45,401 nt of DNA. It comes from Chitinophagaceae bacterium (GTDB taxonomy: Bacteria; Bacteroidota; Bacteroidia; Chitinophagales; Chitinophagaceae). Positions 11,827-16,162 of this stretch are shown piece after piece; within the stretch, counting starts at the first letter, position 1; every line of letters starts with the position of its first letter. The notes under the pieces were generated by a model. The model searched no databases and had not been told where the DNA came from. It saw only the letters and a program-made list of their open reading frames with translations. The translations under genes and the position numbers were made by a program. The DNA is taken from contig JANWIJ010000016.1 in assembly GCA_025449935.1 (NCBI GenBank), positions 1 through 45,401 on the forward strand. Direction: 5' to 3'.

Positions 11827-14457
11827 TCATATTTTATTCAATATTTTAGCGAGGTCAATCCCCTTACCAAGTACGGGCTTAAAAATATCTCCTTCACTTT
11901 TTATCCGGTCCATCGTATTTTCTATGGTGAAATCTTTCATGGAAAGCCCCTTTTTTACTTCCTCCCAGTGCATGGGCATTGAAACGGTGGCCCCGGGTTT
12001 GGGGCGGAGGGAATAAGGAGCTGCCAGGGTTGCTTTTGGCCGGTTTTGCAGGTAATCAATATACAATTTTTTTTTCCGGTTCTTTACCAACCGTTCAATG
12101 CTGGTGAATTCGGGTAGTATATTATGGACCTGGGTGGCAATAACCTTTCCCAACAACTGGCTCTGGTCATAAGTATATTTTGCTCCAAGCGGTATATAAA
12201 TATGAATACCCGTGGAGCCTGACGTTTTGGGGTAGCCGGTTATTCCCAAATTGTCCAGTACTTCTTTGGTTACCTGCGCTGTTTTTATCACTACATCAAA
12301 ACTTTGTTTTTCCGAAGGATCCAGGTCAATCAGGCACCAGTCCGGGTAATCTTCCTTGTGGATGGTGCTGTTCCAGGGGTTCATTTCAATAGCTCCTGAA
12401 TTGGCCATGTATAAAATACTGGCTTCATCCTCGGGTACCAGGAAATTCTTGTCTTCGCCTTCCGCGGTTCGGTAAGGCTCCATTTTAATCCAATCCGGGG
12501 CTGTATGGGTAATATCTTTCTGGTAAAAACTTTTACCGTTGATGCCATTGGGAAAGCGGTTCAGCGATTGCGGCCGGTCTTTTAAATACGGGAGCAGGTA
12601 AGGGGCTACGCGGAAATAATAGTTCAGCATATCACGCTTGGTATATTTTTCCCGCGGCCAGTAAATTTTGCTGAGGTTGGTAAATTTTATTTCGTGGCCA
12701 TTAATTTTTCTTACCTGGGTTTCATCGGTTGGATTCAGCAATGTTTTACGCTCCTTGCCGCTAACCGGTTTGGCATACTTCGTGACGATGGCTTTCGGGT
12801 TCTTTAGAATTTTTTTGGTTTCCATGGCTGTTTCTTTTTTAACGTCCCTGGCTTTTTTATCTTCCCGCATCCCTTCGAAAGAAGGATGCCGCATCACCCC
12901 GTCATCGGTGATTTCCGTATAGCTAACTTCGCAGACCAGTTGAGGTTTTAGCCAGGTCACTTTGGCTTTTGGCGGGTTGTGCCTGAAACGGGAGGGCTTA
13001 TTCACATCGGGTGTTTCAGAAAAAGGAATTTTGCCGGTGGATAATTTTTTCATTTTAACCATCAGTTCCTGTTGCATTTTTTGATCAAAACCGGTACCTA
13101 TTTTCCCCAAATATTCCAGTTTTCCTTTGTCGTATACTCCCACCAGTAATGAACTGAATGTTTTGGCTGAACCTTCGTTTTGGGTAAAGCCTCCGATAAT
13201 CACTTCGTGCCGTTTGTTTGCTTTGATTTTTAACCAATCCCCCGACCTGTTATTTTCCGTGTAAGGGCTATCGGCTTTTTTGGCCATGATTCCCTCCATA
13301 CCCATTTTAGCTGCTGCCGCCAGGAATTGTGTAGCAGATGTTTCAAAATTTTCGCTCAGTCGTATAATCCCTTCTCCCGGCAAATTTTCTTTCAGGATTT
13401 CCCTACGGGCAGTTAAAGGCAGCTCTTTTAAATCATACCCATCCAGCCATAGAATATCGAATACATAGTAGACCAGTTCCCCGACGGCTTCGCTTCGCCA
13501 GTTTTGCAGTGATCCAAAATGCGCAATGCCATTATCTTTCAACACGGCTACTTCGCCATCCACGACTGCGTTGATTTTCCATTTCTTAACGGCATCATAT
13601 ACCGGGTAAAATTTTTCGTTGAAGGATTTATTATTTCTTGACAGCAGGTTCACCTTGCCTTTATTGACGAATGCAACAGTCCGGTAGCCGTCCCATTTTA
13701 TTTCGTAGATCCACCCTGGTTCGTCAAAAGGCTTATCTACCAGGGTTGCCAGCATGGGTTTGACGGACCCCGGAAAGGGTGCTTTCCGGCCTGGTTTTTT
13801 AGGTGACTTTTTTTTTACGGGTTTCTTTTTTTCGTCAGGCGTGCCCGGGCCTGTGCTTTTGTGACCATAGATATTACTGCTGGTCTTTGTTACTTTTTCA
13901 AGCGTCAATCCTGAAACCACCGATTTATCTTTCCGGGTGATATCAGTTTCTTTTGCATATTGATCCCGGTGTTTGATCAATAACCAGGCATTGTCCTCTT
14001 TGCCTTTCAGCCGGACCAGCGCAAATTCACCTTTCAGTTTAGTGCCGTGCATCCGGAACTTTAATGAACCTGTTTTCAGTTGTTTCAATAATTTTTTCTC
14101 CTGCTCTTTCTTGTTGCCCGTTTCCAGGGTTTCGTAGGTACCTTCGTCCCATACAATTACGGTCCCTGCTCCATAGTTCCCTTTGGGAATAATGCCTTCA
14201 AAGGTTCTGTAGTCATAAGGATGGTCTTCGACCATCATCGCTAATCTCTTGTCAGCCGGATTCAGCGAAGGACCTTTCGGAACGGCCCAACTTTTAAGAA
14301 CCCCGTCCATTTCCAGGCGGAAATCATAGTGCAGCCGGGAAGCAGCATGTTTCTGGATAACAAAACGCAAAGCCGGGCCAGAAGCTTTTCCACCGGTTGG
14401 TTCAGGGGTTTTGTCAAATGCTCTTTTCTTCCTGTAGAGGGATAGTCCCATATCCAT
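11827..14457 (-). CDS. ligD: DNA ligase D (phosphoesterase-ligase-polymerase)
   Basis: This is a complete 876-residue LigD with the domain order seen in Pseudomonas. The 3'-phosphoesterase is at about 28-160, with H37, H43, D45, R47, H79 and Y83 at the positions of the metal-site residues. The ATP-dependent ligase is at about 230-530, with the AMP-accepting lysine K254 in EIKWDGYR and VVDGEVAVL near 298. The archaeo-eukaryotic-primase-like polymerase is at about 585-870, with the metal aspartates D711 and D713 in LIDLDPSE. A Lys-rich linker (205-228) joins the first two. It repairs double-strand breaks with Ku by non-homologous end joining. No Ku gene is in the window. A 79-aa gene follows by 6 bases. 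Confidence 0.97.
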   Translation of the reverse strand: MDMGLSLYRKKRAFDKTPEPTGGKASGPALRFVIQKHAASRLHYDFRLEMDGVLKSWAVPKGPSLNPADKRLAMMVEDHPYDYRTFEGIIPKGNYGAGTVIVWDEGTYETLETGNKKEQEKKLLKQLKTGSLKFRMHGTKLKGEFALVRLKGKEDNAWLLIKHRDQYAKETDITRKDKSVVSGLTLEKVTKTSSNIYGHKSTGPGTPDEKKKPVKKKSPKKPGRKAPFPGSVKPMLATLVDKPFDEPGWIYEIKWDGYRTVAFVNKGKVNLLSRNNKSFNEKFYPVYDAVKKWKINAVVDGEVAVLKDNGIAHFGSLQNWRSEAVGELVYYVFDILWLDGYDLKELPLTARREILKENLPGEGIIRLSENFETSATQFLAAAAKMGMEGIMAKKADSPYTENNRSGDWLKIKANKRHEVIIGGFTQNEGSAKTFSSLLVGVYDKGKLEYLGKIGTGFDQKMQQELMVKMKKLSTGKIPFSETPDVNKPSRFRHNPPKAKVTWLKPQLVCEVSYTEITDDGVMRHPSFEGMREDKKARDVKKETAMETKKILKNPKAIVTKYAKPVSGKERKTLLNPTDETQVRKINGHEIKFTNLSKIYWPREKYTKRDMLNYYFRVAPYLLPYLKDRPQSLNRFPNGINGKSFYQKDITHTAPDWIKMEPYRTAEGEDKNFLVPEDEASILYMANSGAIEMNPWNSTIHKEDYPDWCLIDLDPSEKQSFDVVIKTAQVTKEVLDNLGITGYPKTSGSTGIHIYIPLGAKYTYDQSQLLGKVIATQVHNILPEFTSIERLVKNRKKKLYIDYLQNRPKATLAAPYSLRPKPGATVSMPMHWEEVKKGLSMKDFTIENTMDRIKSEGDIFKPVLGKGIDLAKILNKI

Positions 14458-14933: not shown

Positions 14934-15104
14934 AGTCAGGGAAAAACAAATTGCGTGCTAAGTCACTGTTGATGGCATAGCATTTGAATTTTATTATGTA
15001 ACGCCCTTAATGGTTATTGGCGGGTAACGCCGCATGCTGTAGATACCTGATCCCTTAAAAGAAAAAAGCCTTGCAAATTTGCAAAGCTTTTTAAGTGCCC
15101 GGGA

Positions 15105-15124
15105 CCTGCCTACCGTCAGGCAGG
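15105..15124. repeat. 20-nt palindromic insert, copy 1
   Basis: CCTGCCTACCGTCAGGCAGG. It interrupts the T-stem of the tRNA-Leu remnant between A and T. Its reverse complement differs from copy 2 at a single base, so the two lie in opposite orientations. A 7-bp stem can form. Confidence 0.85.
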
Positions 15125-15160
15125 TCGGAATCGAACCGATACATCCTTGCGGACGGCAGA

Positions 15161-15180
15161 CCTGCCTGACGGCAGGCAGG
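15161..15180. repeat. 20-nt palindromic insert, copy 2
   Basis: CCTGCCTGACGGCAGGCAGG. This is an 8-bp perfect stem with an ACGG loop; flanking A and T extend the stem by one pair. It interrupts the tRNA remnant at the anticodon loop/stem border. The intact tRNA copy has no insert here. Confidence 0.88.
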
Positions 15181-15246
15181 TTTTGAGTGCTGCCTTTTAT
15201 CAGCGATTATTCTTAACTTTTTCAGGAATTCTTTTCCTGCACCTGA

Positions 15247-15459
15247 TTACAGATATTTTTCCCTTTCCCGGGCTTCATGCCTGGTCGGAAAAGTTTCTAT
15301 TACAATAATCGTGAATGGCCTATAGGGTTTTGTCGTTCTGTTAAACCCGGAGTTATGTTGTAACATCCTGCGTTGGATTTGATGCGTTAAACCTACGTAA
15401 ATGTAATTCCTCGATAAGCTTGATATGACGTAAACATAAAACGGACCGATGCCAGGCAT
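15247..15459 (-). CDS. GIY-YIG nuclease (UPF0213/URI type), cut short by an in-frame stop
   Basis: The 70 residues from MPGIGPFYVYVI hold the GIY-YIG core: FYVYVISS for the GIY strand, NYIYVGLT for the YIG strand with the following Gln/Arg helix (QIQRRMLQHNSG), then TTKPYRPF and the EAREREKYL helix carrying the metal-binding Glu. Such single-domain nucleases are normally 80-100 residues. Here the frame stops at TAA (15247-15249). Reading on in the same frame gives SGAGKEFLKKLR, exactly the usual C-terminus, so one Lys codon appears to have become a stop. The gene lies between two copies of the tRNA-Leu 3' half. The ATG at 15459 matches the family start better than the one at 15540. Confidence 0.8.
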   Translation of the reverse strand: MPGIGPFYVYVISSLSRNYIYVGLTHQIQRRMLQHNSGFNRTTKPYRPFTIIVIETFPTRHEAREREKYL

Positions 15460-15518
15460 TACACTAAAATAAACAGAGGCGCTAAAAGCAGTAAGTGGAA
15501 AAAACAGGTAAAAAAAGA

Positions 15519-15548
15519 AAAAAGCTTTGCAAATTTGCAAAGCTTTTT
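15519..15548 (-). terminator. Terminator of the tRNA-Leu gene
   Basis: A 30-base perfect palindrome (AAAAAGCTTTGC ... GCAAAGCTTTTT) starts 4 bases past the tRNA 3' end. It ends in T on the minus strand. A nearly identical hairpin with one mismatch is present in the second copy near 15060-15092. Confidence 0.88.
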
Positions 15549-15551
15549 AAG

Positions 15552-15635
15552 TGCCCGGGATCGGAATCGAACCGATACATCCTTGCGGACGGCAGATTTT
15601 GAGTCTGCTGCGTCTACCAATTCCGCCACCCGGGC
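15552..15635 (-). tRNA. tRNA-Leu(CAA)
   Basis: This is a complete cloverleaf of 84 nt. The acceptor GCCCGGG pairs with CCCGGGC, with discriminator A. The D arm contains TTGGTAGACGC. The anticodon stem GCAGA/TCTGC closes the loop CTCAAAA, giving anticodon CAA (reads UUG). A long class II variable arm (CGTCCGCAAGGATGT region) and the T arm ATCGG-TTCGATT-CCGAT follow. CCA is not encoded. It lies 20 bases downstream of hscB on the same strand. Its 3' half is repeated 456 bases further on. Confidence 0.96.
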
Positions 15636-15655: not shown

Positions 15656-16162
15656 TTAAGCCATTCCGGCTAATTGCTGCGAGATGCGATCCAGATATTT
15701 TTTCTTGTAATAATATTCTTTTACCTGCAGCAATTCTTTTTCGGTAGTAATACCTTCTTTATAATGCTCCACAATCTCCCGAACAGGTTCATATATTTCT
15801 TTTTGAAGATGACTGATGGCAGGTTGCAGGATACCAAGGGTATTCTCATCTGCCTCCATTAATTGTTCATTTATTTCCAGCACCTCCATTAGGAAAGCCG
15901 GAGGTAATTCATATTTCTCTTCTTCCTCCAGCAGTCCCTTTTCTTTGAGGACATACCGGGTGGTCTCGTCCTGGTTTTGAAAGGTTTTCCAGGCTTTATT
16001 TAACAGGGATGATTTTTCCAGGGCTTCAGCCTTCGATGCTGTTGTATCGTTTACGAAGTAATCCGGGTGATATTTTTTGCTGAGCGCAAAGAATTTCCCG
16101 GACAAAGCCGCGGCATCCACTTTCAATTGTACGGGTATTTCAAATAATTCGAAGTAAGTCAT
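15656..16162 (-). CDS. hscB: Fe-S cluster assembly co-chaperone HscB
   Basis: This is a 168-residue J-domain protein. The N-terminal domain (about 1-75) has the HPD tripeptide at H32-P33-D34 in KKYHPDYF, which stimulates the ATPase of an Hsp70 (HscA/DnaK). SLLNKAWKTFQ and TRYVLKEKGLL near 52-77 are typical of HscB rather than DnaJ. The C-terminal helical bundle (about 85-165), with LPPAFLMEVLEINEQLMEA, binds the scaffold IscU. It acts in the cytoplasm in transfer of [2Fe-2S] clusters. No isc partner is adjacent. The gene precedes tRNA-Leu on the same strand. Confidence 0.93.
   Translation of the reverse strand: MTYFELFEIPVQLKVDAAALSGKFFALSKKYHPDYFVNDTTASKAEALEKSSLLNKAWKTFQNQDETTRYVLKEKGLLEEEEKYELPPAFLMEVLEINEQLMEADENTLGILQPAISHLQKEIYEPVREIVEHYKEGITTEKELLQVKEYYYKKKYLDRISQQLAGMA

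Follow-up and report, generated by a model that had tools for sequence, protein, structure and literature searches.

A truncated GIY-YIG nuclease gene between two tRNA-Leu copies is probably a decayed member of a family of minimal homing-type elements in tRNA genes

Introduction

The window analysed here, a 45,401-nucleotide stretch of a Chitinophagaceae bacterium genome (assembly GCA_025449935.1, contig JANWIJ010000016.1), contains a tRNA-Leu(CAA) gene whose 3' half and terminator recur on the far side of a small GIY-YIG nuclease gene. This arrangement raises the question of whether the nuclease gene belongs to a mobile element that splits and rebuilds a tRNA gene or whether the locus arose by plain tandem duplication. 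Integrative elements with tyrosine recombinases enter tRNA genes and restore one half of the gene, and group I introns with GIY-YIG homing genes also occur in tRNA genes. The units described below resemble the former in tRNA-gene insertion and the restored half but span only a few hundred base pairs and can displace the 5' half. With the latter they share a tRNA target and a GIY-YIG enzyme, but the tRNA gene is rebuilt by duplication rather than by splicing. Comparison of the locus with its relatives leads us to propose that the window unit is probably the decayed form of a minimal homing-type selfish element belonging to a large family, in which the typical unit is a lone GIY-YIG gene of ~80-100 codons lodged in a tRNA gene.

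Results

Anatomy of the window unit

We searched the window sequence for tRNA genes with ARAGORN and for repeats, inverted repeats, and Pfam and Rfam families. ARAGORN detected a single tRNA gene, tRNA-Leu(CAA) (Table 1), which is followed in the 3' direction by a terminator, the GIY-YIG ORF, a damaged tRNA 3' half, and a second terminator. Confirming the original prediction that the 3' half of tRNA-Leu and its terminator are repeated in the same orientation around the nuclease gene, we found direct repeats of 48 nt (15057-15104 and 15513-15560; 98% identity) and 36 nt (15125-15160 and 15561-15596; 100% identity). Chance is not an issue as the source of 84 nt of near-identical repeat with a common terminator. 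The GIY-YIG ORF was also verified as the only recognisable gene between the tRNA copies, and the unit contains neither an integrase gene nor a HUH tyrosine transposase. The tRNA homology of the second copy extends to ~15193, on the 5' side of the anticodon stem. The predicted border at the anticodon thus holds for the window but not as a universal junction, as many displaced copies elsewhere reach near the tRNA 5' end.

Table 1. Features of the window unit and its upstream landmark
Feature	Coordinates	Strand	Basis
Intact tRNA-Leu(CAA)	15551..15635	-	ARAGORN; Rfam tRNA, 58.8 bits
Terminator-like palindrome 3' of tRNA, copy 1	15519..15548	-	Sequence and repeat analysis
GIY-YIG nuclease ORF, 70 codons, early TAA	15247..15459	-	Pfam PF01541, E 1.8e-15; translation; nearest homologues mostly in tRNA-Leu units
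Displaced damaged tRNA-Leu 3' half, anticodon stem to 3' end	15095..15193	-	Repeat and tRNA alignment
20-bp palindrome in anticodon loop of damaged copy	15161..15180		Same place in L076, L078, L082, L109
Second 20-bp palindrome, near T-arm/acceptor border of damaged copy	15105..15124		Pattern match
Terminator palindrome, copy 2	15063..15092	-	Direct repeat and inverted repeat
Presumed hscB-like gene (from its appearance), landmark upstream of tRNA, outside unit	15656..16162	-	tRNA-Leu(CAA) at 28 of 30 such loci

Two 20-bp palindromes, absent from the original prediction, lie inside the damaged tRNA copy and account for its greater length compared with the intact gene. Both are of the type CCTGCC..GGCAGG, and each sits exactly between A and T of the tRNA sequence. 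Allowing up to two mismatches, we observed four matches to the pattern in the window (two sites, both strands) against a mean of 0.01 in dinucleotide shuffles of the whole window. The palindromes were rejected as a general feature of the window, with matches at these two sites only.

The nuclease ORF likely begins with the ATG at 15459 and ends with a TAA at 15247-15249, ahead of the last dozen or so residues of full-length homologues, and four aligned Leu-type homologues extend at least 12 residues further. The nuclease is therefore truncated, and the unit is a remnant; intact homologues exist in other genomes, for example Leu-type ones in Flavobacterium orientale and Algoriphagus limi. At the same locus, L109 and L153 have a second unit running off the contig and terminators of nearly identical sequence after the intact and damaged tRNAs. 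The window unit is probably the decayed remnant of a two-unit array like that in L109, and loss of the second nuclease gene from such an array would explain the doubled terminator. Downstream of the unit, an 876-codon ORF on the minus strand (11827-14457) presumably encodes a multidomain DNA ligase D, judging by the look of its translation.

Homologous units adjoin tRNA genes

The genome to which the window belongs (3.5 Mb, 118 contigs) yielded eight GIY-YIG matches, five of which lie immediately 3' of same-strand tRNA genes (Leu, Phe, Val, Pro, and Gly). The other three comprise a short fragment and two long proteins, with open frames of 605 and 497 aa. The Leu, Phe, and Gly units each have a damaged tRNA copy after the nuclease, and one begins in the Val unit before being cut by the contig end; a search of the Pro unit found none. 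An Rfam scan of six loci from this genome returned tRNA alone and no self-splicing intron.

We then extended the analysis with two profiles, A1 from five proteins and A2 from four Leu-associated proteins. A1 had matches in 98 of the 149 order genomes searched and in 140 of the 195 family genomes, and A2 matched 191 of 296 genomes of the phylum Bacteroidota, often several times per genome and in arrays. The surveyed loci were the best-scoring of the matches listed plus 49 stretches chosen down those lists, not a random sample, and gave 244 distinct units in 214 loci (domain score of at least 55, duplicates removed). A same-strand tRNA called by ARAGORN lay within 150 bp of 190 of these units (counted upstream in 128 and downstream in 62; none in 54), with a median distance of 38.5 bp. 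In these counts, "intact" means called by ARAGORN, because ARAGORN also calls some hairpin-damaged copies. Among the 54 units without such a tRNA, 49 have a same-strand tRNA fragment within 260 bp and 30 are in loci with two or more domains. Five of the 244 (two in L040 and one each in L092, L286, and L289) lacked both a tRNA in the 150-bp range and a fragment in the 260-bp range, and neither was seen near L014 and L016, homologues below the score limit. Before duplicate removal, none of 263 domains had a tRNA within 150 bp solely on the opposite strand, and all 17 control loci with GIY-YIG in open frames longer than 400 aa were without a tRNA.

The original prediction also proposed a test of whether homologues lie just 3' of a tRNA or rRNA gene with a partial copy of that gene beyond them. 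Protein-sequence searches gave 185 units with sufficient flank, and in 166 of them a damaged copy of the adjacent tRNA lies beyond the nuclease and scores above both shuffles and reverse complement; in the other 19, including L004 of the window's genome, the far-side copy did not rise above shuffles. The same arrangement occurs at ~13 tRNA identities, and two to five nuclease domains were seen at 29 of 227 loci. The tight association with tRNA genes and the growth into arrays might suggest a module serving the host, with the nuclease and spare tRNA pieces contributing to tRNA supply, tRNA repair, or anti-phage defence, for which the available text on SegB offers a precedent in tRNA amplification that serves phage T6 (PMC13096335). 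We consider this very unlikely, given that most extra tRNA copies are broken or hairpin-bearing and so unlikely to supply tRNA, that the units are patchily present, and that nucleases such as that of the window have decayed.

ARAGORN reported tRNA-Stop(TTA) at L123 (1099-1172 and 2081-2155) and L150 (1087-1174). We rejected these as ochre suppressors, as they are copies of tRNA-Lys and tRNA-Leu in which an inserted palindromic hairpin forms the anticodon arm; such calls in these genomes can therefore be artefacts. Ile(TAT) and unassigned (???) tRNAs beside units were likewise judged to be damaged copies, from their hairpins and places on the nuclease tree rather than by individual alignment.

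Empty and occupied sites show clean insertion

Units occurred in two layouts. In type I, an intact tRNA is followed by (usually) a terminator, the nuclease, and a damaged 3' part (the window, L002, L009, L051, and L053). Type II units start with a damaged 5' part, have the nuclease ATG close behind it, and end with the intact tRNA (L038, L043, L054, L060, and L073). Both types occur within the Leu clade. The prediction that the displaced half is the 3' half is thus right for the window and for type I but not for type II, which displaces the 5' half.

To look for empty sites, we searched 117 family genomes with the hscB-like protein; 57 gave a match, and the 30 best loci were analysed. Among the 28 of these containing tRNA-Leu(CAA), the nuclease was present in five, including the window, and none was found in 23, so that relatives carry this locus both with and without the unit, as had been anticipated. 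Two comparisons of close species, each with one empty and one occupied site, also bore out the prediction. At tRNA-Leu(CAG), G120 is occupied by a type I unit and G132 is empty, with both flanks ~92% identical; bases 91-1154 and 1483-2595 of L145 match one continuous stretch of G132 and overlap by the last 18 tRNA bases. The displaced piece in G120 carries the base seen at this tRNA in G132, G152, L299, L315, and L319, and the rebuilt tRNA carries another base that also occurs in G156. This difference of a single base is suggestive of a rebuilt half borne by the element. For type II, G152 is occupied at tRNA-Leu(CAA), where G120 and G132 have a single tRNA, and the upstream sequence of the tRNA is kept ahead of the displaced 5' part. 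Empty and occupied relatives therefore show clean insertion, which displaces the 3' half in type I and the 5' half in type II. In close relatives, the Asp locus L046 was rearranged or at contig ends.

These findings bear on plain tandem duplication, which had been put forward as the simpler alternative and in which unequal exchange would have duplicated a tRNA gene lying next to a resident GIY-YIG gene, followed by decay of the extra tRNA. The window copy does repeat the terminator, arrays are common, and unequal exchange probably acts within them. However, the terminators after intact and displaced copies differ in L002, L009, and L053, 23 loci are without a nuclease at the same place, type II units exist, units occur in several phyla, and ~13 tRNA identities are served by largely target-specific nucleases. 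On the differing terminators, empty sites, and type II units, we rejected tandem duplication as a general explanation and regard it as extremely improbable.

Duplication of the tRNA without the nuclease, which the original prediction counted against an element, does occur, in the upstream copies of L138 and L152 and in a derivative in L100. These copies either accompany units or take their place, and we read them as nuclease loss. L100 has a damaged 5' tRNA copy at ~1440-1510 with apparently just the start and end of the nuclease gene left, and L152 has a damaged 5' tRNA copy without a nuclease just after the hscB-like gene. Both copies read as internally deleted, possibly non-autonomous units.

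Nuclease lineages are largely specific for tRNA identity

We built a nuclease tree from 133 domains and 72 columns, in which many forks are unresolved. With 21 rows uncounted (Ile(TAT), ???, Stop(TTA), and rows without a tRNA), tRNA identity required 26 changes on the tree against a shuffled mean of 77.2, and none of 200 shuffles was as low. On an earlier tree (132 rows, all labels), isotype required 30 changes and genus 91. The weakest group was Lys (4 changes in 5 rows), and Lys units together with some Arg and Leu units are scattered over the tree, indicating that targets do change. Among the surveyed domains, the window protein is closest to those of Leu units.

Scanning genome contigs with A2 by protein sequence only gave 429 loci, of which the best 80, including some that had supplied query proteins, were taken. 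In 73 of these 80, a tRNA-Leu lies within 500 bp; the other seven have no tRNA within 900 bp, and none has just a different tRNA. The 80 loci span Bacteroidota, Balneolota, Ignavibacteriota, Chlorobiota, Omnitrophota, and several Patescibacteria, with the proviso that most are metagenome bins in which single taxon assignments may be wrong. We infer that the neighbouring tRNA gene is the cut target of the nuclease.

The nearest solved relatives are the stand-alone UPF0213 proteins (PDB 1ywl, E 2.8e-7; 1zg2, E 3.5e-6), which likewise consist of a bare domain of ~100 aa. Unlike the units here, a relative carried by an Azospirillum plasmid is flanked by sufB and sufC, and ARAGORN detected no tRNA in 1.4 kb there. 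One Leu-type protein had no match in 50,697 phage records. Viral contigs yielded 12 relatives, none with a tRNA at its locus: one, at a contig end, is 57% identical, and the others share 31-43% identity. Weak matches to one Phe-type protein occurred in 11 plasmid records.

Displaced tRNA copies carry clade-specific hairpins

In most units, the displaced copy is broken by a hairpin and an intact tRNA is left beside it. A palindrome anchored to tRNA sequence in the damaged copy was detected in 83 of 119 units with enough flank and not, by this test, in 36. GC-rich palindromes with arms of at least 7 were present in 90 of 199 displaced regions versus 3 of 517 control stretches located at a distance of 0.7-1.24 kb. 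Tests of 72 Leu units detected a tRNA copy in 63 and a palindrome in or near it in 60, and the Leu palindrome occurs in Leu units of Bacteroidota, Ignavibacteriota, Omnitrophota, and Patescibacteria.

The place of the hairpin is fixed by lineage. Val units of the main clade lose the whole anticodon arm, ~nt 29-45 (after nt 28 to before nt 46), and Phe (9/26) and several Pro (9/27) units lose the whole D arm. The insertion lies in the anticodon loop in type I Leu(CAA) units and after nt 22 in most type II Arg(TCT) units. Seven distinct 19-nt Val hairpins, a set chosen as palindromes, show stem covariation, with 4 of 8 pairs changed on both sides. On 81 tree rows, palindrome class required 8 changes (minimum, 5) against 41.2 when shuffled, with none of 200 shuffles as low, and isotype required 19 changes on the same rows. 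Palindrome class thus tracks nuclease clade more tightly than tRNA identity does. Within isotypes that have several palindrome classes (Arg, Asp, Leu, Lys, Met, and Pro), the class mostly goes with the nuclease clade; the exceptions are L067 in the Pro clade and L122 beside Arg units.

Dispersed copies of the Leu palindrome

Exact copies of the Leu palindrome, CCTGCCTGCCGGCAGGCAGG, were found in 14 of the 149 genomes of the order sample and in 24 of the 296 of the phylum sample, and a reversed control pattern gave 0. All 14 order genomes are among the 98 matched by A1 (P 0.002), and all 24 phylum genomes are among the 191 matched by A2 (P 1.6e-5), both P values being optimistic because of relatedness among the genomes and shared members of the two samples. 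Counting by eye among the matches listed, we found 3 of the 52 listed CCTGCCTGCCGGCAGGCAGG sites of the order sample less than 1 kb from a nuclease match, and the four richest order genomes have 5 to 12 exact copies.

Outside the window, its genome contains 13 CCTGCC palindrome sites in 11 stretches (L131-L141). At 12 of these sites we detected neither a tRNA copy (best E 0.017 or worse) nor a nuclease. An ORF of at least 90 codons over the palindrome is absent in six of the 11 stretches, and a mechanical one is present in five. The remaining site, L138 (contig C58, ~1026), has its palindrome in the D-loop of a 5' tRNA-Leu piece (E 0.001) upstream of an intact tRNA-Leu(GAG) without a nuclease, and is a second remnant, devoid of the nuclease gene, in this genome. 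In G031 (C2, 1200428-1232722), eight exact CCTGCC palindromes lie within ~32 kb, denser than elsewhere.

Discussion

The proposal of a tiny tRNA-gene unit without an integrase is supported by the anatomy of the units, the empty sites, and the homologue survey; the DNA cut, where it falls, and its repair by copying are the inferred steps. For a family with target-specific lineages, clade-specific palindromes, arrays, and members in several phyla, we propose the following model. The nuclease would recognise one tRNA gene and cut it within the D, anticodon, or T arm, depending on the lineage, at the place where the hairpin now sits. The break would be repaired by copying the occupied locus, so that the recipient would gain the nuclease gene, a replacement tRNA half, a terminator, and the hairpin. 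One complete tRNA gene would be rebuilt, and the old half would be displaced beyond the nuclease together with the lineage-specific hairpin, which may mark or protect the cut site. In type I, the rebuilt tRNA would then lie upstream of the nuclease and the old 3' part downstream of it. A type II unit would instead begin with the old 5' part, which would keep its own upstream sequence in front of it, followed by the nuclease and then the rebuilt tRNA.

Homing in this simple form faces difficulties. The rebuilt tRNA should be a target too, and the model does not explain how the host escapes cutting of itself. Homing also gives no reason for the replacement of entire tRNA arms with hairpins or for the presence of a distinct hairpin in every nuclease clade; these two features favour a direct role for the hairpin, which could mark the displaced copy as immune or could itself be the DNA that moves.

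If the hairpin is the piece moved, the mechanism could be mobilisation of the hairpin instead of classical homing: the nuclease of each clade would recognise its own hairpin, exchange it for a tRNA arm (probably as single-stranded DNA), and scatter it, with the tRNA unit as the autonomous form. The tracking of palindrome class with nuclease clade even within the six isotypes named above, the exact replacement of whole arms (Val 28/46, Phe 9/26, and Pro 9/27), and the confinement of the exact Leu palindrome to profile-positive genomes (24 of 24 in the phylum, 14 of 14 in the order) are consistent with this. Against it, dispersed copies are few even in the richest genomes, L067 and L122 depart from their clade class, the unit encodes no joining enzyme, and another enzyme could spread the palindromes; moreover, the genomes are not independent, the samples share members, and a single palindrome was tested across genomes. 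We regard this mechanism as unlikely.

A broader conjecture, which we offer tentatively as a plausible but not the expected outcome, is that these units constitute a two-part mobile system composed of a bare GIY-YIG nuclease and a cognate hairpin, with one hairpin and one tRNA arm per clade. The arm would be swapped for the hairpin as the tRNA gene is duplicated and rebuilt, and the hairpin would be scattered as a non-autonomous 20-bp mini-element, making the system a GIY-YIG counterpart of RAYT/REP in Bacteroidota, Ignavibacteriota, and Patescibacteria. RAYT enzymes are thought, in the available accounts, to spread REP sequences. As far as those accounts go, the REP/RAYT (TnpAREP) system is alike in pairing a nuclease family with its own small palindromes that are also dispersed, but the units here have a GIY-YIG rather than a HUH tyrosine enzyme, and their palindromes are of low copy and at fixed places in tRNA arms. 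There is a substantial chance that the paired hairpin makes the units a new kind of element, beyond a variant of homing elements.

For the homing-type reading that we favour, the closest parallel is SegB of phages T4 and T6, a free-standing GIY-YIG homing endonuclease whose gene is next to tRNA genes, as in our units. According to the available part of the report, SegB nuclease activity in T6 drives tandem arrays of tRNA and segB, which are a precedent for the unit arrays described here, and SegB homologues are frequently associated with phage tRNAs, with Bacteroidota phages among the hosts (PMC13096335). SegB differs in being phage-borne, and that part of the report contains no mention of a tRNA gene that is split and rebuilt, of lineages specific for a target, or of clade-specific hairpins. 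The portion available of a 2006 phylogenomics paper on the GIY-YIG superfamily does not mention tRNA-gene neighbourhoods (PMC1564403), and our search of full-text literature, with most subscription journals and all preprints outside its scope, found no description of tRNA-bound GIY-YIG units. This kind of element is apparently widespread, very small, and undescribed.

If our reading is correct, the units, at ~300-450 bp from array periods, would be among the smallest autonomous mobile elements known to us. They would also account for many of the small GIY-YIG genes next to tRNA genes, as well as for anomalous tRNA predictions like the apparent ochre suppressors in L123 and L150. A further question raised is how a nuclease that seemingly targets an essential tRNA gene spares its host. 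The link between nuclease clade and hairpin provides a natural set of paired specificities for the study of DNA choice by small GIY-YIG enzymes.

The genomes used for the occupied-site comparisons contained one further kind of repeat. G120, G132, and G152 have many repeats of 60-75 bp that match the flank of L145 (~1565-1640), lie on both strands, and contain CCCTGAGCTTGTCGAAGGG; these appear to be another dispersed palindromic repeat family.
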